Positions 27 to 23,955 of a stretch of DNA of 25,925 bases are shown here, in pieces. Position numbers and translations under genes: made by a program. Every line of letters starts with the position of its first letter. Position 1 is the stretch's first letter. The notes under the pieces were generated by a model. That model was not told the DNA's origin, ran no database searches, and saw only the letters and a list, made by a program, of their open reading frames with translations. Origin of the DNA: a virus; IMG/VR virus record IMGVR_UViG_3300046665_000330, positions 1 through 25,925 of that record. One strand, written 5' to 3'.

Positions 27-1010
27 GTGAAACCCTTCAGCATCCAGTCGAACAAAGACCTGGCGGAGAAGCTTCGATGGAAATCCTCGAAGATGCTAAC
101 GCTGCTTGGGAAGAACAAATCGGAGCACTACTCGATTCTTTCTCTGCGAAAGAGGGGACCGATTACGAGATATCGGATCCTGCACAATCCTGATAGCTTG
201 ATGCGTGTTGTTCAGTATAAGATCCTAACCCAGATACTGAATAAAATTGAGGTTCCGGAGTACGTCCATGCCTTTGAGAAGGGCAAGAGTATTCCGAAGA
301 TGGCCGAAAGCCATGTGGGCAAGGATATGGTCGTGAGTATCGACTTAGAAGATTTTTTCACTTCTATCAAGCAATACCAGCTTTTCGATTTGTTCCAGCA
401 TCTTGGCTTCAGCCAAGCACCAGCTAGAACTCTGTCAGAACTTTGTACTTATGAGTCATTCGTCCCACAAGGAGCATTGACCAGTCCAAAGATCAGTAAC
501 ATCATTACTGCACTGACATTCGGGCCTGCTATCAAAGAGTTCTGTGATGAGAACAATCTGACGCTCAGCATCTATGCTGACGACATCACAATCTCGATGG
601 ATGCAGAGACGCGAGAGAAGTTAGGGAAAGGTATTGTTGGAAAGATTCTTCAGAAAGTATCAACCGAAGTTGGACGCTATCGATTCAGAGTCAATAAGTC
701 GAAGACCAAGGTTATGCGCTATTTCCAACGGCAATATGTATGCGGAGCCGTTGTGAACGTCAAGGTCAATCTGCAAAAATCTGAGCGTAACAAACTCAGG
801 GCTATGGTTTACAACTGCAACAAGAACGGTGTCGAAGCGGAGGCCGCTAGATCCGGTATCAGTGCAGAGTTGTTCTACAGTAAACTAATGGGGCGATTGA
901 ACTGGTTCAGTCAGCTGAATCCCACAGCTGGTGCTCGTTTGAAATCAAAGCTAAGACAAATCGATATGGGCAAGCAAGAAAGCGATCCTATCGTCGCAGA
1001 GGAAACGTAA
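27..1010 (+). CDS. Retron-type reverse transcriptase
   Basis: RNA-directed DNA polymerase of the retron/bacterial RT group. Visible motifs: palm motif A SIDLEDFF (catalytic Asp106), the retron-like (N)AxxH variant AESH at 93-96, PQGALTSP at 147-154, the catalytic YADD box at 183-186, the lysine-rich VNKSKTK motif at 222-228, and VCG at 238-240, where retron RTs usually have VTG. A short thumb ends in GRLNW (289-293). At 327 residues it has the size of a stand-alone retron RT, with no maturase or endonuclease domain. QGxxxSP rather than the SQ form argues against a diversity-generating retroelement. The GTG at 27 has no clear ribosome site and the frame stays open to the left edge, so the true start may lie outside the window. 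A structured intergenic region and a terminator follow. The RT assignment is firm; retron membership is likely but needs its ncRNA. Confidence 0.88.
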   Translation: MKPFSIQSNKDLAEKLRWKSSKMLTLLGKNKSEHYSILSLRKRGPITRYRILHNPDSLMRVVQYKILTQILNKIEVPEYVHAFEKGKSIPKMAESHVGKDMVVSIDLEDFFTSIKQYQLFDLFQHLGFSQAPARTLSELCTYESFVPQGALTSPKISNIITALTFGPAIKEFCDENNLTLSIYADDITISMDAETREKLGKGIVGKILQKVSTEVGRYRFRVNKSKTKVMRYFQRQYVCGAVVNVKVNLQKSERNKLRAMVYNCNKNGVEAEAARSGISAELFYSKLMGRLNWFSQLNPTAGARLKSKLRQIDMGKQESDPIVAEET

Positions 1011-6523: not shown

Positions 6524-7246
6524 TTAATCCTGAGTTAGTATGAGATCAGCCTGAATCTCAGGCTTACGTAAATCTTTGATAGATTCTCCATCGAATCCTA
6601 TTTTAGTCAAAAACTCTTTATACTTTGAGTTGTTAGATGTTCTCTTGAATATTTTAGCTAAAGTGCTGTAGCACATACCATATTTTTTAGCAAGAACAAT
6701 TATAGAAGGAGTTTCCATAGAGATGTACTCTTTAATTATTTGAATCAAAGTCGGTTCATCTACGAGTCTTGATTTATCCGAGGAGGCCTTCCAAGCTTTT
6801 TTTATGGCACTAGCTACTTTTTCAGGATTAGCTTCTTGATACGCTTTAACACCTGCAATCTGATTAGCAAATCCGCGCTCCTGTTTAGTTGCTGAAATCT
6901 TAGCTCTAGTTGCTTCGTTCATTTCCGGACGTTCAGCAATGCCTGAAATGTTGTAACCAGTTTTTGCAGATTTGAACCAATCTAAATAAACTTGTTCTAG
7001 AATTTCTAATTTCGATTCTTCTACTGTCTCTAAGACTTCAAAATAAAATTTCTCTAACCCGTGTTTATTAACAGAATTTTGTAATTTTTCATTTTCATGT
7101 CTTTTATTTTCAAGAGCCCATAAATGCTGAGTATATCTTCTAGCGCCTTTTGAAGTGGACCCGATGTATATTTTACTAGTAACTACATTTACGATTTTGT
7201 ATATACAAGGTTTGTTGATATCAAAGTTGTTATGTATGAGATTCAT
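6524..7246 (-). CDS. GIY-YIG homing endonuclease
   Basis: This 240-residue free-standing homing endonuclease has the GIY-YIG domain at about 13-100: CIYKI (14-18, in the GIY position), IYIGS (26-30), an Arg pair before YTQH (36-37), a Glu-rich helix holding the likely catalytic Glu (81-84), and GYNISG. A NUMOD3-like motif follows (NEATRAKISATKQERG), then a helix-turn-helix region at about 160-200 (ISMETPSIIVLAKKYGM), which should read the DNA target. The gene is clearly more AT-rich than its neighbours, a sign of recent transfer. It sits between sheath and tube without breaking either. The ATG at 7244-7246 has only GGAAG set too close, so initiation may be weak. Confidence 0.88.
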   Translation of the reverse strand: MNLIHNNFDINKPCIYKIVNVVTSKIYIGSTSKGARRYTQHLWALENKRHENEKLQNSVNKHGLEKFYFEVLETVEESKLEILEQVYLDWFKSAKTGYNISGIAERPEMNEATRAKISATKQERGFANQIAGVKAYQEANPEKVASAIKKAWKASSDKSRLVDEPTLIQIIKEYISMETPSIIVLAKKYGMCYSTLAKIFKRTSNNSKYKEFLTKIGFDGESIKDLRKPEIQADLILTQD

Positions 7247-14815: not shown

Positions 14816-15709
14816 TTAGAAGTTTAGAACAACTGCACCATTTACGTTACCGATACCTGCGCCTACAGCTTCATAGGTGTGGAACTCGATAATGTCTGCT
14901 TCAGTCTTCAGGAAGACTGTAGGAGCTTGAAGCTCATAGAACTGACCTAGGTAGTTCTGAGGAGCAAAAACAAGTGCTTGGTTCGTCGGGAGGATGTTAG
15001 CCTTGTTCGTGGTGATGATCTTGTAACCGAAGAAGTTATCAAGAGTCGCTTCGCCTTGGAACAGAGCTGATGCTGCCGGTGAGCCTACGTCAGTTGCTGC
15101 AAAAGTCAGCAGGTCTGCGTACATTGATTGTGTCATAAGGATACAACCAACTGGTAGCTTGTTCAGAAGCATGAACTTGATACCAGCCATCAGGTTAGCC
15201 TTAGTAAAGCCACCAGCGATGGTATGGACGTTGCTGTTTGCCGTAGCAATTGAGATGATGTTATTGTAGAAGTTAACGTCTTCTTGTTCCTGAATATCCT
15301 TAACGCTGTTTTCTTGAAGGATAGTACGAATGTCGGTACGGTATGTAGCTAGTTCGAACTTGCTCTTACGGAAGTCAGCTGATTGGATCTTTTGGAACGT
15401 AACTGGATAACGTTGGGTCTTCCAGTAACGAATTTCCGGACGGCCAAGGAACGGAGCAGTAGCTGCTACTGAATCAGGTTCCTTTTCAACGATAACCGTC
15501 GGTTCTTCCGTCAGTTGGCGATCAAGCTCTGAAGCTGTGATTTGAACTGGTGTAAGAATCTTACGGGTAAAGCCGTCTTCACGAAGCTTCTGACGTACGA
15601 AAGCTGACATTGCAGCTGAAGCTTCTTTTGTATGACCTTGGTCAATCTTATCTAGGAAAGATTGATTCAGGAATTGTACGTTTACGGTTTCTGTAGTGTA
15701 TGCGCTCAT
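14816..15709 (-). CDS. Probable major capsid protein (HK97 fold)
   Basis: This 297-residue protein has the layout of an HK97-type shell subunit: a helical N-terminal arm (about 1-60), an E-loop-like segment (PEIRYWKTQRYPVTFQKI), a spine-helix region (TRDIRTIL-like through NFYNNIISIA) and a C-terminal A-domain with alternating strands (NFFGYKIITTNKANILP, ALVFAPQNYLGQFYELQAP). It would build the icosahedral head. K-E-A-S at 28-31 matches the K-x-A-S peptide repeated in the head block, so the N-terminal arm may be trimmed during maturation. The start has AGGAAAATAAA before ATG. It follows the decoration gene by 12 bases and is the last gene before a terminator. It is short for a jumbo-phage capsid protein, but position and composition agree. 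Confidence 0.75.
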   Translation of the reverse strand: MSAYTTETVNVQFLNQSFLDKIDQGHTKEASAAMSAFVRQKLREDGFTRKILTPVQITASELDRQLTEEPTVIVEKEPDSVAATAPFLGRPEIRYWKTQRYPVTFQKIQSADFRKSKFELATYRTDIRTILQENSVKDIQEQEDVNFYNNIISIATANSNVHTIAGGFTKANLMAGIKFMLLNKLPVGCILMTQSMYADLLTFAATDVGSPAASALFQGEATLDNFFGYKIITTNKANILPTNQALVFAPQNYLGQFYELQAPTVFLKTEADIIEFHTYEAVGAGIGNVNGAVVLNF

Positions 15710-16266: not shown

Positions 16267-16524
16267 TTATTTTTTATCGTTGCGATGCTTAATTTTTGAA
16301 TAAAGCTTACCGCCAGCAAGACCGCCTAAATATCCGCCGACGCCTGCACCGACAACAGCTCCGACAGGACCAGCAACACTACCTGCTGCACCGCCAAGTC
16401 CTAATCCAATACCGCCAGTAATAGTACCAGCTACAGTACCTCCCAACTTGTCGCCCTTCTTAGCACCGCGGTATCCGCCAATTACGTTAGTAATTGCAAT
16501 TTTCTCTAGATATTTATTTCCCAT
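16267..16524 (-). CDS. NKYLEKIA protein with glycine-zipper segment
   Basis: This 85-residue protein starts MGNKYLEKIAIT, the signal shared by six proteins here. After a basic stretch (GYRGAKKGDK) comes a glycine-zipper region (GGTVAGTITGGIGLG to YLGGLAGG, about 28-72), then a basic tail (KIKHRNDKK). Glycine zippers often insert into membranes and oligomerise. With a head-targeting signal in front, a role after ejection at the host membrane is possible. It is the last gene of the head block, 5 bases after the previous stop, and ends before a terminator. Confidence 0.75.
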   Translation of the reverse strand: MGNKYLEKIAITNVIGGYRGAKKGDKLGGTVAGTITGGIGLGLGGAAGSVAGPVGAVVGAGVGGYLGGLAGGKLYSKIKHRNDKK

Positions 16525-16529
16525 GATTA

Positions 16530-17129
16530 TTAGCTCAGCATGAATTCAAGAAGCGGATCAGTCTTAGGACGAGCCATACCTACACCATTGCCCATGCCCC
16601 AAGGTTCATCCATTGCTGAAGCAACTTTCTGAAGAACTGCTGGAGATACTTTTTGGAGTTGCTCTAGATCTTCTTGTGTAAACTGTGCTGCAGAAGCAAG
16701 CTTAGAAAGTTGCTCTGGAATCTCTATAGGCTGTTTGGTGGCTTCGATAAGTTCAGCTTGATGTTCGGAAGCTTGTTTCTCAATCTCAGCCTTTAGGCCT
16801 TCGATTTGAGCTTCTAGAGCATCAATGTATTCAGCTGTCTTGTTTAGAAGTTCAACTGTGGGATCTTCGTCAATTTCAAGAACGAAATTGGAGAGTTCAG
16901 CAACGTTAATGTTTGCTGCTTTAACAAGCTTTACAGCTTCTTCGTGATCAACGCCCTTCATGGCTAGAGCTGAAGTAGCCTCTTTTTCCATGATATGTTG
17001 AGCTACTTGATAACGAGCATCTGCATCGCTAAAACCAGCTTGCTTAAGGTGTTCGATTGCGACAGCTTCAGGAGTTGCCAGACGAACTGTTTCAGCGTGG
17101 TCTTTAAGGATTGTTGATAGTTTAGTCAT
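16530..17129 (-). CDS. Scaffold-like helical head protein
   Basis: This 199-residue, nearly all-helical protein has a coiled-coil region at about 95-130 (YIDALEAQIEGLKAEIEKQA). It has four K-x-A-S/T sites: KEAT 49-52, KQAS 118-121, KLAS 143-146 and KVAS 168-171. A GxDxxxAVxLVK module lies at 54-72 (SALAMKGVDHEEAVKLVKAA), with a looser copy before it. Size, helix content and repeated sites fit a scaffold or core protein that the maturation protease cuts up. Its start overlaps the previous gene's end by 8 bases. Confidence 0.65.
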   Translation of the reverse strand: MTKLSTILKDHAETVRLATPEAVAIEHLKQAGFSDADARYQVAQHIMEKEATSALAMKGVDHEEAVKLVKAANINVAELSNFVLEIDEDPTVELLNKTAEYIDALEAQIEGLKAEIEKQASEHQAELIEATKQPIEIPEQLSKLASAAQFTQEDLEQLQKVSPAVLQKVASAMDEPWGMGNGVGMARPKTDPLLEFMLS

Positions 17130-17613
17130 TTTGTTTACGTCTTTTCTCGATTACGCTTTTAGCGTGGTTGTGTCTGAAGTTATCAGCGTAAGCTGCGCCT
17201 GGAATAATACCTACTGCAGCTCCAGCAACTCCACCCATAGCTCTACCTGTATTTTGGGTTTTCTGTTTAATCATGTCGTGAGCATACACTGCAAAGCCTT
17301 TTGCCTCACGTTCCGGAGTTTTACCACCTGCCATAAGAGTTCTATACGCCTCTGCACCGAACTTCTTACCTTGCTTGGCACCAATCTTTGCTCCGATTTT
17401 ACTACCAAGCGTTGCTCCCGCATGATGTCCTAATCCAGCACCTAAGCCTACTACACCTATACCTAGAAGGCTTTTTCCAAAATTTTTAAGACTTGCACCA
17501 CCAGCAGTGGCGTATTCTACGTCGTAGTCTCTCCTTTCTTTTCCGGACAGAGTCTTTTTATACTCTTTACTCGGAAATAGAGAAGCAACTTTCTCTAGGT
17601 ATTTATTGGACAT
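17122..17613 (-). CDS. NKYLEKVA protein with Gly/Ala membrane-like segments
   Basis: This 163-residue protein starts MSNKYLEKVASL. Two Gly/Ala hydrophobic segments follow: GIGVVGLGAGLGHHAGATLG (about 51-70) and MGGVAGAAVGIIPGAAYA (about 126-143), separated by a Lys-rich region (KIGAKIGAKQGKKFG). The C-terminus is strongly basic (ending KRRKQND). No enzyme motif. It overlaps both neighbours (11 bases before, 8 bases after), so it belongs to one tightly coupled operon. Likely an internal head protein of unknown action. Confidence 0.72.
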   Translation of the reverse strand: MSNKYLEKVASLFPSKEYKKTLSGKERRDYDVEYATAGGASLKNFGKSLLGIGVVGLGAGLGHHAGATLGSKIGAKIGAKQGKKFGAEAYRTLMAGGKTPEREAKGFAVYAHDMIKQKTQNTGRAMGGVAGAAVGIIPGAAYADNFRHNHAKSVIEKRRKQND

Positions 17614-18028
17614 GTTTGTTAATCTGTTTATTTAGTTTAACACCGGCATAATCTGCCGCTAGTCCAGCTGCCCCGCTCAATGCCATAATTTTAGCATTGT
17701 GGAACTTAGCTCCTTGACCAAACATTTTCGGTGCCGAGTTCATGGCTTTATGGGCAGCGAAGCCGGTTGCTGTACCTAGCCCTGCAATGACACCAGTATT
17801 GATCAATTCTTGTTTATGCGTTAAATCTTGCGCAGCTTTATGCAACGCTCTGGCAAAGAGAGACTTCGCTCCTCTGACCAGTTTTGAACCCGGAGCCGTG
17901 ATTGGCGCAGGCTCTTTTACCTTCCCTAGGCTTACATCTTGCTTGACAGTCATACTAGCCGATTTGATTCGACCTTGACTATCTACATCAAAATTCAGAC
18001 TAGCGATTTTTTCAAGATATTTATTCAT
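17603..18028 (-). CDS. NKYLEKIA protein, 141 residues
   Basis: It starts MNKYLEKIASLNFDVDSQGR. A basic middle (KLVRGAKSLFARALHKAAQD) is followed by two hydrophobic stretches (TGVIAGLGTATGFAAH and KIMALSGAAGLAADYAG) and a short basic end. It is the first gene after the terminator at 18041, and the next gene overlaps it by 11 bases. The Shine-Dalgarno site is weak (TAGG). No known enzyme family. Confidence 0.72.
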   Translation of the reverse strand: MNKYLEKIASLNFDVDSQGRIKSASMTVKQDVSLGKVKEPAPITAPGSKLVRGAKSLFARALHKAAQDLTHKQELINTGVIAGLGTATGFAAHKAMNSAPKMFGQGAKFHNAKIMALSGAAGLAADYAGVKLNKQINKHVQ

Positions 18029-18091: not shown

Positions 18092-18388
18092 TTACGCTAG
18101 TTCAGCGGCTTTCTTTTCTACTAGATCAACAGCGTTATCAAAGTCAACACCAGCTTCGACTAGAAGTCCGACAGCGGCTTGTTTCTCTTGATCTTTGCTC
18201 TTACCTTTTGCGGCCAACACGCCCATACCAGCACCAACTGCTGCTGCACCTGCTACGCCTGCAGCAACTCTGGTCTTATTAAGTGAACGGGTTTCGCCAA
18301 GAATATTCTTTGTTGCGCCACCCGTACCTGGGATACGTGTTACCTTAGGAGCTAACGAAGTGCCTGCTACTTTACCTGCCAGTTGCAA
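18092..18388 (-). CDS. Downstream frame of a probable -1 frameshift fusion
   Basis: As a separate ORF this would start at TTG with no good ribosome site. The frame is open upstream to 18415, where it meets the end of the previous gene at A AAA AAG, so it is probably read as a -1 frameshift extension of 107 residues (total about 391). It contains a Gly/Ala membrane-like segment (VAAGVAGAAAVGAGMGVLAA) and, near the end, a third copy of the module found twice upstream (GLLVEAGVDFDNAVDLVEKK). A single-gene reading with a sequencing slip in the A run, or weak TTG initiation, would give the same picture. Confidence 0.62.
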   Translation of the reverse strand: MQLAGKVAGTSLAPKVTRIPGTGGATKNILGETRSLNKTRVAAGVAGAAAVGAGMGVLAAKGKSKDQEKQAAVGLLVEAGVDFDNAVDLVEKKAAELA

Positions 18389-18405
18389 GACACCCGCTTC
18401 TTTCG

Positions 18406-19266
18406 TTAGCCCAGCTTTTTTACCAAGTTTACTGCCGTTTCAAAATCGAAACCAGCACCGATGAAGTGCGAAAGAGCAGCTTGCTTAATTTGTGAAGCTT
18501 CTTCACGTTCGATCTCAGCAGCAGCTTCCTTGACCATGTTTACTGCGTCTTCGAAGTCGAAGCCTTGGCCTACGAGTTCTGAAACTGCAGCAGCCTTTTC
18601 TTGGCCAGCCGTTACCCAACCACCAGTTTGAACTTGGTTAGGAGCTTGATCATTGATAGCGCCTTCGTCTTTAGCAACGCCAGGAGCAGGGTTTTGATCA
18701 ACGGGAGCAGCGCCGCGAGCCATTGCGTCAGCAACGATTGCGTCGAAAATTTGGTTGATAGTACCGCCATTGCCCTTACCGTCTGTGCCGGGTTGGTTCT
18801 GAATGACAGCATCTTGTTCAGCTACTTGAGCTGCAAGATCAATTTGAGTCTTGTTGGGTACAGCATTGCCAATACCATTCATGGTATTTTGGTCACCTAC
18901 TGAAGCCAGCTTCTCAAGAAGAGCTTCGGCTAGTGCCTTGCCTGCGTCAGCAGCTTGTTTGTTCATAGTATCCTCTGGTTTTACTTGATCAAGTTTAATG
19001 GATGCAACTTTTTGCATTACTTCTTTTGCTAAGTCAGCGCCTTTAGCCGCAGCTTCTTTGACACGTTCATCAGCATCGTTCTTCTCTTTAGCGTCCTTGA
19101 CTTCTTCCTTAGCTTCCTTTACATCTTTGTCAGCTTTGTCGATAGCCTTTTCAGCCTTATCTTCATCTTTCTTTTCTTCTTTCTCTGTATCTTCACTAGC
19201 TACTTTATGTAGACCAGCTTCAGTTTCCAGATCTTTAAGAAGACCGTCTAGAGTGAAACTCATCAT
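18406..19266 (-). CDS. Scaffold-like head protein with frameshift site
   Basis: This 286-residue protein has K-x-A-S sites at 21-24 (LHKVAS), 86-89 (MQKVAS) and 119-122 (LEKLAS). Residues 25-80 are a highly charged helix of Glu, Lys and Asp. Residues 130-220 are Asn/Gly/Gln-rich and probably flexible. Two copies of a 24-residue module end it (227-250, 262-285: G-x-G/A-G-F-D-F-E-x-A-V-N-x-V-K). The zero frame stops three codons after the slippery A AAA AAG (18415-18421). AAGGAT precedes the ATG. Next to the protease, it fits a scaffold or core protein processed during head maturation. Confidence 0.68.
   Translation of the reverse strand: MMSFTLDGLLKDLETEAGLHKVASEDTEKEEKKDEDKAEKAIDKADKDVKEAKEEVKDAKEKNDADERVKEAAAKGADLAKEVMQKVASIKLDQVKPEDTMNKQAADAGKALAEALLEKLASVGDQNTMNGIGNAVPNKTQIDLAAQVAEQDAVIQNQPGTDGKGNGGTINQIFDAIVADAMARGAAPVDQNPAPGVAKDEGAINDQAPNQVQTGGWVTAGQEKAAAVSELVGQGFDFEDAVNMVKEAAAEIEREEASQIKQAALSHFIGAGFDFETAVNLVKKLG
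18415..18421 (-). promoter_or_regulatory. A AAA AAG slippery heptamer
   Basis: On the minus strand the zero frame reads GTA AAA AAG CTG GGC TAA. The heptamer is in the correct phase for a -1 shift, after which the frame runs GCT GGG CTA ACG and stays open for 107 codons. A AAA AAG is the same site used in E. coli dnaX. A weak stem (CTTGC/GCAGG) lies about 23 bases downstream; no upstream Shine-Dalgarno-like stimulator was found. Confidence 0.65.
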
Positions 19267-19322: not shown

Positions 19323-20837
19323 TCAATTCTTTTTCTTCTGAACCAACTTAAGCATCGCTGTTTTTGCGAGTTTGTAAGTTAGCTTATAGTCAGAAGCAGA
19401 TTTAACTAAAACTATTTTAACACCATCTGAAGTCTTGTTCAATTCTTGTTCTTTCATTTTACGTTCGATAACTTGCGTAATATACCACTTTGCTGCGAGG
19501 GCAGCGCCACCGATGGCAGCAATGGCAGAAAGAACCTTCATTAGACCTGACTTGTTCTCTTCTTCTGACTTCAGGTTTTGTTCACGGAACTTCTCATACA
19601 TAGTAGGTTCAATGTGTGGGCCATTGCCTACATAACCTACATTAGTTCCTTGCATAAATCCATAAGTCGAAGCTTGTTTGTTCAACGATACACGCTCTTC
19701 CACATACTGAGGTAGATACGAGGAATCCTGCATATGAGGAAGCATAGCGTGAACGATACCGATATTTGGTTCTGTTATTTCGCCAAAATCACGGTCGAAT
19801 TCGGGGAGTGAGCTAATACCAGCACGGTCAAAGTACGCAGCAGCCATTGGGCCAATACCACGTCCCTCTTCACCCATTAGTTTACGTCCAATTAGTTCAG
19901 CAAGAAAACCAATCGAAGGGCTAATACCAAGATGAGCAAAGGTACTAAAAGTTTCATTAAGCTTATAATTTCGGAGAACGTCAATGACGTCACCTTGCGG
20001 ATCACTAACTCGTGATACAAGATTATCAAGACTAGGATCGATAGATACAACATCGCCGTCAATCTCCTTCGTTAATTCTGAAAGCTTTTTGAGAGTAGCG
20101 CTCTTTTGAAGAGGCAGATCGTTAAGACCAGCCATGAGTGCTTCATCAACAGATCCAACAACTGCGCTTTCAGATGCTATTTTTTGTAGAACGGCGCTAG
20201 TTACGTCAGCTGGACGAAACACAATAGAAATGTCGAAAAATCGTAATGGAGCCAGGTTTAGAGCCATGACCTTACGACCATCAGGGAATACCTTACCAAG
20301 CTGTTCGCTCAAGTGTTCACAATACTGTTCACGAGTCTTTGCCTTGTTACCGCAAATAGAGCATACGTCGAATGGAGTACGGCAAGCCATTGAAGTCTTA
20401 GGCCAGTCCCCGCTCTCGATACGATCAACGATGTCAGGGGCTTTGTCATTCCATAGTTCAGCGATAAGTTCAACACGGTGCATTCTATCGTTATAGACAG
20501 AGTACACAACTTGACCTATGGCGATTTCTGGATTTTTGTTTACGTGGTTACGGAAAATATGGGCAGGAGCCGTCTCAAAGGTATTGTGATAATCAATGAG
20601 GTTGCTTTCTGGAAAGTAGTCGGCATTACGATTGGCACCGTAATACTCTCCTGCGCCCATAGCAAGAATGTGAAGATACGTCTTACCCTGTACTGGGGTA
20701 ATTTTGGAAGCGAATTCTTGGATGCGAGAATCCGTAGCCTGTTTGATAAGACTGCCTGTAAGATCCTTAGGATCGAGAATAGTTACCTGTGGTTCGTCAC
20801 GGTAAAAAGAAGACGTATCGATTAGTTTTGTTAGCAT
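19323..20837 (-). CDS. Probable prohead maturation protease
   Basis: This 504-residue protein has an N-terminal domain (about 1-215) resembling capsid-assembly serine proteases: His98 in FRNHVNKNPEIAIGQV and Ser149 in WPKTSMACR are the likely catalytic pair. A cysteine/histidine group follows (C159, C162, C173, H175; VCSICGN... YCEHL) that may bind zinc. Right after the domain comes LQKIAS (217-222), then LQKSAT, LNKQAS and LVKSAS, which may be self-cleavage sites. A membrane-like helix lies at about 431-455. It would cut scaffold, internal and capsid proteins before DNA packaging. Twice the length of simple prohead proteases, so the C-terminal half may act as scaffold. Confidence 0.68.
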   Translation of the reverse strand: MLTKLIDTSSFYRDEPQVTILDPKDLTGSLIKQATDSRIQEFASKITPVQGKTYLHILAMGAGEYYGANRNADYFPESNLIDYHNTFETAPAHIFRNHVNKNPEIAIGQVVYSVYNDRMHRVELIAELWNDKAPDIVDRIESGDWPKTSMACRTPFDVCSICGNKAKTREQYCEHLSEQLGKVFPDGRKVMALNLAPLRFFDISIVFRPADVTSAVLQKIASESAVVGSVDEALMAGLNDLPLQKSATLKKLSELTKEIDGDVVSIDPSLDNLVSRVSDPQGDVIDVLRNYKLNETFSTFAHLGISPSIGFLAELIGRKLMGEEGRGIGPMAAAYFDRAGISSLPEFDRDFGEITEPNIGIVHAMLPHMQDSSYLPQYVEERVSLNKQASTYGFMQGTNVGYVGNGPHIEPTMYEKFREQNLKSEEENKSGLMKVLSAIAAIGGAALAAKWYITQVIERKMKEQELNKTSDGVKIVLVKSASDYKLTYKLAKTAMLKLVQKKKN

Positions 20838-20861: not shown

Positions 20862-21392
20862 TTAATTACGAATGTATTTGTTATAACCGTGTTCTAATAC
20901 TGTCCCTACTGCTGCTCCAGCGACACCGCCAACGATAGTGTTCTTAACGCCTCTAAGACCAACTCCAACTAAAGATTCATTATTTTTACGAGTAGTCTTA
21001 TTGACGCCCTCTAACGCACCTGCTGCCGTACCTACTGAAACAATGGGGCGCTGTTTTGCAAAATGCAACGCATCTCTAGCAGCTCGTGCAACGCTGGCTT
21101 GTTTTTCTTGAGAAGGAGTAAGTTTAAGGTTTACAGTTACCTTAGGTTTCTTTTTCAGCGCTTCTGAGATACCCTTAAGTTCATTCAAAGACTGAGCTTC
21201 TATTACACTGCGATGTTTATTATCTTGCTTATTCTCTAGACTATTTGCATAATTAGCAGCACCAAGAGTAAGACCAGTAGCAGACATGCCTAGACCAATT
21301 TTTGAAGTGGTAGAGCTTCTGTTCCAACCTTTTGCGAAGCTCTTTCCGAAATTGGAGATAGAGGCGATTTTTTCTAGGTACTTATTTTCCAT
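20862..21392 (-). CDS. NKYLEKIA protein, 176 residues
   Basis: It starts MENKYLEKIASISNFGKSFA. Features: a short hydrophobic segment (IGLGMSATGLTLGAANYA, about 32-49), a Lys-rich middle with KEKQAS-type site (SQEKQASVARAARD), and a C-terminal Gly/Ala segment (KNTIVGGVAGAAVGTVLEHG). It overlaps the ADP-ribosyltransferase-like gene by 11 bases and lies 24 bases before the protease gene. No enzyme motif. Likely packaged and cut near the signal. Confidence 0.72.
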   Translation of the reverse strand: MENKYLEKIASISNFGKSFAKGWNRSSTTSKIGLGMSATGLTLGAANYANSLENKQDNKHRSVIEAQSLNELKGISEALKKKPKVTVNLKLTPSQEKQASVARAARDALHFAKQRPIVSVGTAAGALEGVNKTTRKNNESLVGVGLRGVKNTIVGGVAGAAVGTVLEHGYNKYIRN

Positions 21393-22164
21393 GTTTTTTA
21401 AATTGGTTAGCGGCGTAGGCTAAACCTCCACCGATCATTGCAGCGCCCATTGCAGCCTTACCAGTACCCTTCAAGAAACGTTTAGTATTCGCTTTCGCAA
21501 ATTCTCTAATTTCACCAAGAGAATTCTTCTGATACGCCTTAGAACCCTCCATATACTTGTTTGAAACGTTGCCTTTATTGGTAAAGACTTCTTTTTCAAG
21601 TGTTGAGTATATAGTGCGCTTCTGTTGAGTTTTTGCAAACTTGGGAGAGAAGGCGTCTTCGTTTACCGTTTTGAAACTTGTTTTTACTTCAGGGTTCCGT
21701 ACCTTACGAAATTCGTCTTTTTTCCAAGTAGGAGCGTTGATATTAATTACACCCTTAGAACTTTCTTTACCAGGAATAGCATCTTTAAGACGTCCCACCA
21801 TATCGTGTATGTTAAAAGTACCATTCTCAATACGTGATGCTTGATTCGCATAGCTGTGTGCTTGCATTTTACTTCTAGTCATAAACGTTAAGTTGTCTGA
21901 CTTTAAATTTTGGCCTGTCGCATCTTGAGCGATATCGATAATACCTTTCTTCGCTCTTGGTTTAAGACCGTCTTTAAGAATTTGTTCTTTATTAGCAGCA
22001 GAGGTTCCGTGGTAAAGAGTCTCACGGCCAGTTATATGGCCACCGTGGTACTGCTTATTAACTACAGACGCACCGAGAACAGCAGCTCCACCACCAGCTG
22101 CTGTTTTCTGCTTTTTAGAAAAATGCTCTTTATCAGCGGCTATTTTTTCTAAATACTTATTCAT
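21382..22164 (-). CDS. NKYLEKIA protein with ADP-ribosyltransferase-like domain
   Basis: This 260-residue protein starts MNKYLEKIAADKEHF. A likely catalytic domain covers about 44-210. LYHGTSAANKEQILKDGL (50-67) is the first motif of PARP/KptA-like ADP-ribosyltransferases (His52); LTFMTRSKMQAHSYANQA (92-109) fits the second region with Tyr105; STLEKEVFTNKGNVSNKYM (187-205) fits the third, with Glu190 or Glu192 as candidate acid. Such enzymes transfer ADP-ribose from NAD to a target. The C-terminus has a hydrophobic Gly/Ala helix (KAAMGAAMIGGGLAYAANQF). A head-targeting-like signal on such an enzyme parallels T4 Alt, which is injected to modify host RNA polymerase. The target here is unknown. 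Confidence 0.6.
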   Translation of the reverse strand: MNKYLEKIAADKEHFSKKQKTAAGGGAAVLGASVVNKQYHGGHITGRETLYHGTSAANKEQILKDGLKPRAKKGIIDIAQDATGQNLKSDNLTFMTRSKMQAHSYANQASRIENGTFNIHDMVGRLKDAIPGKESSKGVININAPTWKKDEFRKVRNPEVKTSFKTVNEDAFSPKFAKTQQKRTIYSTLEKEVFTNKGNVSNKYMEGSKAYQKNSLGEIREFAKANTKRFLKGTGKAAMGAAMIGGGLAYAANQFKKHGK

Positions 22165-22721: not shown

Positions 22722-23804
22722 TTAATCACGCTGGAGAGCGCTCCAGACATCGTTACTTCTTCCAGTTGTTTTATCTGTGCCTGGATCGTAGAATGCTGCA
22801 TCTAAAACTGGGCCACCTGCTCTGATAACACCCGATACAGCGCTTGCTGAAGTTCTACCGATAGCCTTTGCTGTGTTCTTAGCTGTTGGCTTACCTAGAG
22901 CTGCAATGTTATTCTTAACAGAGTTGTTAATTGCCTTTCCAGCTGCTGCCGCTGCTCTGAATGGTGTAGACGCTGCAACACCAATAGCCTTACCAGCTAC
23001 ATAAGCAGGGTTTGCTTTTTGAGCTGCATTCATTGCAGACTTAGCACCACCTTGCATCGCCTTATTGAAGATATTAGATTTTACACCTTGAGCAGCATCT
23101 GCTGCACGTTTCTGAAGCTCTGAACGTTCACGTTGTTCACGGACCAGTGCACGAGCCTGTTTGTACAGTTCTGCAAATCCAGTAGCTTCTTTAAGTTGTG
23201 CAACTTTAAACAGTCCAAGCTCTCCAAGTTCACGGTATCCCTTAACCTCGCCAGAAACGAGGATAGAAAGCTCTGAGAAGGTCTTCTCATCCGTGACACA
23301 TGCCAGCTTATCCATCCAAGCGTCATCCTTACCAAGAGCCTTTGCGGCCTTCACAAGCATATCCGCTACTACAATACTATCCATTTCAATACGTTCAAGA
23401 GCTTCTTTGTTAGCTGAAGCCGACTTGATGAGGTATGTAAGCTGTTCTGCTTCGACCAATTGAAGGTCTGTTGCCGATGCTTCTTTTTCTAGTTCTGCCT
23501 TCAGTTCTTCGGTAGTTACTTGGGCAACCTTCTCCTGGAAATTATCAGGAATAGTAGCGGCTGACATAACTTCTGCAAACTTAGCTAGTGGGAATTCTAC
23601 TGTACGATCTTCTGCGTGCTGAAGAATTTTCAAATAAGCAATATTATTCGTTGATTCTACTGCCCGCTTTACTTGTTCTACATTCAGTTCATAAGCGGCT
23701 GCTTGTTTAGCTAGACCTTTGCTCAGAGGAACTTTGTTATTCAGGAAATCTTCAACTGCTTGAACTGAGATATCCCGAAGAAGTTCAGGGGTTACGTTTG
23801 CCAT
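22722..23804 (-). CDS. Helical head-block protein, scaffold/core-like
   Basis: I chose the ATG at 23804 (MANVTPELL) because GGAG precedes it by 6 bases; an ATG four codons upstream (23816) has no site. The 360-residue protein is helical to about 240, with K-x-A-S sites KEAS (107-110) and KSAS (127-130) and related KQAA and KVAQ. The last 120 residues are Ala/Gly/Lys-rich (KAIGVAASTPFRAAAAAGKA) and may bind DNA or membrane. Charge and repeated sites suggest a core or internal protein cut by the maturation protease. Its start overlaps the 56-residue NKYLEKIA ORF by 20 bases. Confidence 0.68.
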   Translation of the reverse strand: MANVTPELLRDISVQAVEDFLNNKVPLSKGLAKQAAAYELNVEQVKRAVESTNNIAYLKILQHAEDRTVEFPLAKFAEVMSAATIPDNFQEKVAQVTTEELKAELEKEASATDLQLVEAEQLTYLIKSASANKEALERIEMDSIVVADMLVKAAKALGKDDAWMDKLACVTDEKTFSELSILVSGEVKGYRELGELGLFKVAQLKEATGFAELYKQARALVREQRERSELQKRAADAAQGVKSNIFNKAMQGGAKSAMNAAQKANPAYVAGKAIGVAASTPFRAAAAAGKAINNSVKNNIAALGKPTAKNTAKAIGRTSASAVSGVIRAGGPVLDAAFYDPGTDKTTGRSNDVWSALQRD

Positions 23805-23955
23805 TTTTGGCTCCATGTTTCTGTGACTTTATTTTAACCTTGGCAGACAAGGAGACAAAAGGCTTCTTAGGGTGCTTAATAGGCTTTTGACCAGCACGCA
23901 TAGTAAGCTGACCACTCTTCTTCTTTGATGCGATTTTTTCTAGATACTTATTCAT
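23785..23955 (-). CDS. Tiny basic NKYLEKIA protein, 56 residues
   Basis: It starts MNKYLEKIASKKKSGQLTMR. It has 15 Lys, 2 Arg and 2 His but a single acidic residue (in the signal). Rest of the sequence is low in hydrophobics (KPIKHPKKPFVSLSAKVKIK). It begins 2 bases after the previous stop and overlaps the next start by 20 bases, the same coupling style as other genes of the block. Charge and size resemble small DNA-condensing internal head proteins. No strong Shine-Dalgarno site; translation is probably coupled to the gene before it. Confidence 0.68.
   Translation of the reverse strand: MNKYLEKIASKKKSGQLTMRAGQKPIKHPKKPFVSLSAKVKIKSQKHGAKNGKRNP

Follow-up and report, generated by a model that had tools for sequence, protein, structure and literature searches.

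Among tailed phages, the known cases of programmed frameshifting are mainly tail chaperones and capsid or tail proteins, and in E. coli the dnaX gene carries the heptamer A_AAA_AAG with a downstream stem-loop. In phage lambda, a −1 frameshift in the tail assembly chaperone gene gives rise to gpG and gpGT (PMC5009743). In gene 10A/10B of phages T7 and T3 and in the major head protein of Lactobacillus phage A2, a −1 shift extends a fraction of the capsid protein, often by an Ig-like domain (PMC5009743). The csoS2 gene of carboxysomes yields two forms of a shell-assembly protein through −1 frameshifting, with a reported efficiency of ~50%, and in retroviral Gag-Pol the cargo appended by the frameshift enters the particle on the structural part (PMC5009743). 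The internal proteins of phage T4 bear a ten-residue N-terminal capsid targeting sequence (PMC9026906).

The gene described here lies on the minus strand of a 25,925-nucleotide stretch of bacteriophage DNA (IMG/VR record IMGVR_UViG_3300046665_000330), analysed as a whole and referred to below as the window. An earlier note, made from the letters of the window, had proposed that a programmed −1 shift joins two of its reading frames. This proposal is now supported by conservation of the slip site and stop codon, by a stem-loop, by a −1 frame under coding selection, and by a second clade with a different heptamer in the same place; on this sequence evidence, programmed −1 ribosomal frameshifting is the best explanation of how the gene is decoded, and a highly likely one.

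The predicted slip site and its conservation

The zero-frame ORF (18406-19266, minus strand) encodes 286 aa, the predicted short product, consisting of a charged N-terminal part, a conserved middle and two copies of a helix-turn-helix-like module (copy 1, EKAAAVSELVGQGFDFEDAVNMVKEAAAE, 18514-18600; copy 2, KQAALSHFIGAGFDFETAVNLVKK, 18415-18486, terminating at the slip site; both minus strand). It ends with GTA AAA AAG CTG GGC TAA and carries the slippery heptamer A_AAA_AAG in X_XXY_YYZ phase at 18415-18421 (minus strand); the stop codon TAA (18406-18408, minus strand) lies two sense codons past the A-site AAG and is kept in all clade A records. The extension (18092-18415, minus strand) is open in the −1 frame for 107 codons, from 18415 down to 18095, with its stop at 18092-18094, a length reached by 0.08% of the dinucleotide-shuffled versions of this stretch. 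By computed translation, a −1 shift at the heptamer yields a fusion of 391 residues, to which the extension contributes a Gly/Ala membrane-like segment, VAAGVAGAAAVGAGMGVLA (18212-18268, minus strand; product residues 334-352; mean Kyte-Doolittle 1.84 across 19 residues), and a third module copy, AAVGLLVEAGVDFDNAVDLVEKKAAELA (18095-18181, minus strand), present in the −1 frame only. The sole near start for the downstream frame is a TTG at 18386-18388, which is CTG in the relatives L008 and L012, and among the clade members compared no ATG, GTG or TTG of the −1 frame was found near the stop in all members. The earlier note had read the same junction codons and phased heptamer, an open −1 frame of 107 codons, products of 286 and about 391 residues, a third module and a membrane-like segment after the shift, and a downstream ORF without a good start, all of which agree with these results; it had named no strand, and the gene is on the minus strand. 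Similar modules, KQAGFSDADARYQVAQ and KGVDHEEAVKLVKAA, are apparent by eye in a 199-aa protein encoded at 16530-17129 (minus strand).

Clade A comprises eight sequences including the window, the other seven records having been retrieved by searches with each half of the gene and with the exact DNA. They fall into three sequence types, identical to the window, 94% and 77%: two of the seven records match the window fully across the gene, four are of the 94% type and one is of the 77% type. The heptamer, CTG GGC TAA and the near flanks are identical letter for letter in 8/8 sequences, window counted, and the run comprises exactly six A in every one of them. A miscounted A run, for instance one of seven A, had been named in the earlier note as a refutation, and is excluded because all eight sequences have six A; the heptamer, whose presence in relatives the note had put forward as a check, is kept in the seven other records across the three types.

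Codon identity is unbroken for longest at the slip site, in a run that starts four codons before it, both between the window and L012 (16 codons) and between L008 and L012 (19 codons), whereas for the closer pair, the window and L008, the slip-site run ranks only fifth longest. The chance of the 13 unchanged codons past the slip is ~1e-5 at the synonymous-change rate of the remaining extension; because it is only ~0.01 at the lower, zero-frame rate, the unchanged codons taken alone are a good but not overwhelming point. Between the clade A types, differences in the extension are distributed over −1-frame codon positions 1/2/3 as 21/12/50, 22/15/48 and 45/36/106, and G+C content by codon position in the −1 frame resembles that of the zero frame; by these measures, the −1 frame evolves like coding sequence. 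Of the marks expected of a −1 frameshift site, clade A shows a heptamer that fits X_XXY_YYZ in the phase of the zero frame, an extension under coding selection and a slip site kept among relatives.

A stem-loop is predicted downstream of the heptamer at 18349-18412 (minus strand), with lower arms GGGCUAACGA (18403-18412) and UCGUUAGCUC (18349-18358) that are invariant in the three clade A types. Its z values are −3.1, −3.2 and −3.3 in the three types for a 68-nt stretch picked to contain the stem, and only −1.0 for a 121-nt stretch around it. The arms lie in unchanged sequence that includes the six-fold degenerate Ser/Leu codons TCG TTA, which are free to change; the lower stem pairs being invariant, there is no covariation. 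As folded, the stem begins 0-2 nt past the heptamer, nearer than the usual spacing, and an Rfam search returned no relevant family for it.

Split, fused and separate relatives

The analysis drew on 160 loci gathered with profiles of two proteins, the protease-like neighbour and the capsid protein, and it was through these that the phage relatives were found: tblastn of the 286-aa protein against phages, a search of the phage collection with 5 kb of DNA, and a scan of genome contigs each gave zero matches. In the close loci, the gene sits after the protease-like gene, in the same order as in the window.

A second candidate slip site is found in clade B, made up of Vibrio phage D69 and the contigs L052 and L056; three Vibrio phage records agree on it. 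Here the homologous gene ends with GGA AAG TAA after a G, placing the heptamer G_GGA_AAG at the stop, and the −1 frames are open for 128-167 codons. GGGAAAG is the lambda heptamer, of low-efficiency type. The three extensions are homologous to each other and to gp224 of Arash, which is a separate gene. Stem-loops in this clade have a z of −3.7 in D69, with a spacer of 6 nt, −5.5 in L052 and −1.0, which is not significant, in L056. The site was missed in the public annotation of D69, where the locus (L025 9663-10948, VPHD69_0271 + 0272) is entered as two hypothetical proteins and is probably one frameshifted gene, with its stop near position 156820 of the D69 record and a predicted junction reading AAAAGK-VKSALSG; an isolated phage may therefore exist for a direct test. 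Across the 1963 ORF ends in all loci, such heptamers occur within the last 12 codons in 89 cases, 23 of which also have a long −1 frame. This combination was observed in 6/39 genes of the scaffold-position family versus 17/1924 others (Fisher 3e-6, a p-value to be read as a guide only, the rows being related and the test ignoring shared ancestry).

Two further sites were noted in the course of this comparison. In a single record, L130, a gene at 155-973 (plus strand) homologous to window 22722-23816 ends with T_TTT_TTT and has a long −1 frame, which may reflect either a further frameshift, in a different head gene, or a homopolymer error. The gp22/gp23 gene of Bacillus phage G (L187 8729-10398), with an annotated join at GTA AAA AAG TAG in the same region, is lysin-type and was rejected as a homologue.

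Most relatives (e.g., L009, L032, L033, L037 and L116) have one continuous frame without a slippery site and end alike, with the Gly/Ala segment followed by the last module. The window fusion aligns through the junction with these single-frame relatives, and the K-K-A that the earlier note saw restored by the shift is found in frame in L116, as AAG AAG GCG. The fused relatives show the long product to be a genuine protein, and they leave room for the split having begun as an indel. Fused homologues without the slippery site had also been listed in the earlier note as a refutation; they do exist, but are not an argument against the clade A site. No heptamer is present at the end of the gene in the Arash group, where a second, separate gene comes next. 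The tree built for the adjacent protease-like protein places D69, L052 and L056 in one clade (100/100) far from the window, and pairs L012, which is split, with the fused L032/L033 (support 97/96) inside the window's group. These placements make repeated gain or loss of the split arrangement probable.

The main rival to programmed frameshifting is rescue, or "savior", frameshifting, in which an old indel would have split a continuous gene and slippage would restore the long product, the short form having no role of its own. Consistent with this explanation, most relatives, the close L032/L033 among them, have one continuous frame, the split L012 groups with those fused relatives in the protease tree, and selection would likewise preserve the heptamer and stem. 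We nevertheless consider rescue unlikely: the two clades differ in the heptamer found at this position, the extension is expressed from a gene of its own in the closest relatives of clade B (Arash gp224), and the low-efficiency lambda-type G_GGA_AAG fits a minor product better than a rescue. A point against the programmed reading itself is that L032/L033, very close relatives, get by with only the long form, and the short one is therefore dispensable in at least some relatives.

The presence of a homopolymer run and the existence of fused homologues could suggest that the gene is in truth fused and the A run an error of sequencing or assembly, which is next to impossible given that eight sequences of three types from several samples all have six A and the same stop, and that clade B has no long run, with three Vibrio phage records in agreement. 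Clade B also speaks against slippage of the polymerase rather than the ribosome; six consecutive A would permit it in principle, but GGGAAAG contains no long run and six A is short for polymerase slippage, making a transcriptional origin very improbable. Independent translation of the downstream frame, whether as a gene with a start codon of its own or through reinitiation past TAA, is hardly likely: Arash does have the corresponding domain of clade B as its own gene, and a TTG is present in the window, yet that TTG is replaced by CTG in L008 and L012, the −1 frame has no start codon near the stop in all members, and the conserved −1 sequence starts at the junction itself. Recent decay, by which a frameshift mutation would have truncated a gene still fused in relatives and left the remainder as a remnant, is extremely improbable with a −1 frame that remains open and shows third-position bias across lineages, and with an unchanged slip site. 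Programmed frameshifting is the preferred reading, with a slip that is very probably genuine and of use to the virus.

Neighbourhood and putative role of the protein

The gene lies between protease-like and capsid genes in the close loci. In the window, the upstream neighbour encodes a 504-aa, weakly head-maturation-protease-like protein (19323-20837, minus strand; phrog_18299, 1.2e-7), and downstream lies the gene for the major capsid protein (14816-15709, minus strand; phrog_2522, 1.7e-12; phage G gp27, 1.2e-4). The identity of the protease is drawn from phrog_18299 and from weak fold matches, in which the predicted structure (pTM 0.41) retrieved T4 gp21 as its fourth match and several herpesvirus proteases further down the list, without significance for any of them. 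Searches of Pfam and PHROG gave no match for the protein of the window gene, and a weak match to phrog_37946 was seen in 1/17 homologues. A fused homologue is predicted to be all-helical, with low confidence (mean pLDDT 50), and Arash gp223 is annotated as "structural protein". Based on its position, after the protease-like gene and before the capsid gene, and on its charged composition, the protein is most likely a prohead scaffold or core protein. The scaffold-type head-block protein of the earlier note is plausible from position and composition, although it has no match to a known scaffold family.

With programmed frameshifting, part of the ribosomes would end at TAA and release the 286-residue protein, and others would slip back one base on A_AAA_AAG, aided by the following stem-loop, to produce the 391-residue form. 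This minority form, carrying the Gly/Ala membrane-like segment and the third module, would co-assemble by the N-terminal part common to both forms and would supply the prohead with a restricted number of membrane-like tails. That ribosomes slip here in living cells, how often they would do so, the function as a scaffold and the purpose of the tail are what we infer.

In L008 and L012, the frameshift product continues into a Gly-rich C-terminal domain. The same domain constitutes a separate 85-aa protein in the window (16267-16524, minus strand), which starts with MGNKYLEKIA and matches L012 6267-6896. Six window proteins, all encoded on the minus strand, begin alike, with M(x)NKYLEK(I/V)A (16267-16524, 17122-17613, 17603-18028, 20862-21392, 21382-22164 and 23785-23955), and relatives have the same set-up; the protein at 21382-22164 has weak similarity to the Tpt1/KptA RNA 2'-phosphotransferase (Pfam PTS_2-RNA, 0.0011, below cut-off). 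The NKYLEK leader resembles in kind the T4 capsid targeting sequence, and by analogy with that ten-residue sequence on internal proteins, entry into the head may be gained in two ways, by the leader or by the scaffold tail. A more tentative possibility, which we regard as doubtful, is that scaffold frameshifting sets the number of membrane-active or cargo domains per head, the cargo being exchangeable and the NKYLEKIA leader serving as an alternative ticket. Elsewhere, the window encodes a reverse transcriptase (27-1010, plus strand; RVT_1, 2e-23; phrog_2825, 3e-54) and, among structural genes, a GIY-YIG endonuclease (6524-7246, minus strand; 3e-8).

Comparison with known systems

Like lambda gpG/gpGT, the window gene would shift late in its first frame and give a minority product with an extension, but it is located in the head block between protease-like and capsid genes, with no tape measure neighbour. 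No similarity of the window gene to tail chaperones was found, and assignment as a lambda-type tail assembly chaperone was rejected, the gene being flanked by protease-like and head genes and not by a tape measure gene. The likeness to T7/T3 10A/10B and A2 is that the shift adds a C-terminal domain and that relatives vary, having the domain by shift or in frame. In contrast to those systems, the capsid gene of the window is separate (14816-15709) and the tail is Gly/Ala membrane-like; a capsid protein extended by frameshift (T7 10B, A2) was rejected because the shift is not in the major capsid gene.

E. coli dnaX has the same heptamer and a stem-loop, and differs in that its −1 product is the shorter one. 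With csoS2 the window gene shares the production of an assembly protein in two forms, although csoS2 is non-phage and the ~50% efficiency figure is that of csoS2 only, and with retroviral Gag-Pol it shares only the logic of appended cargo. We know of no frameshift in T4 gp22 or the T4 internal proteins. These resemble the present system in a gene within the protease-to-capsid stretch whose product is helical and charged and whose neighbours share an N-terminal leader (PMC9026906, PMC3012670), and differ from it in that they have no sequence match to the window gene. The literature searched, with subscription papers lying mostly outside its scope, yielded no frameshift in a scaffold gene; the mechanism itself is known, and what that literature did not contain is its use in a scaffold-position gene with two sites in two clades. 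The two slip sites, together with the fused and separate versions, constitute a natural series for asking if head assembly depends on the proportion of two scaffold forms.
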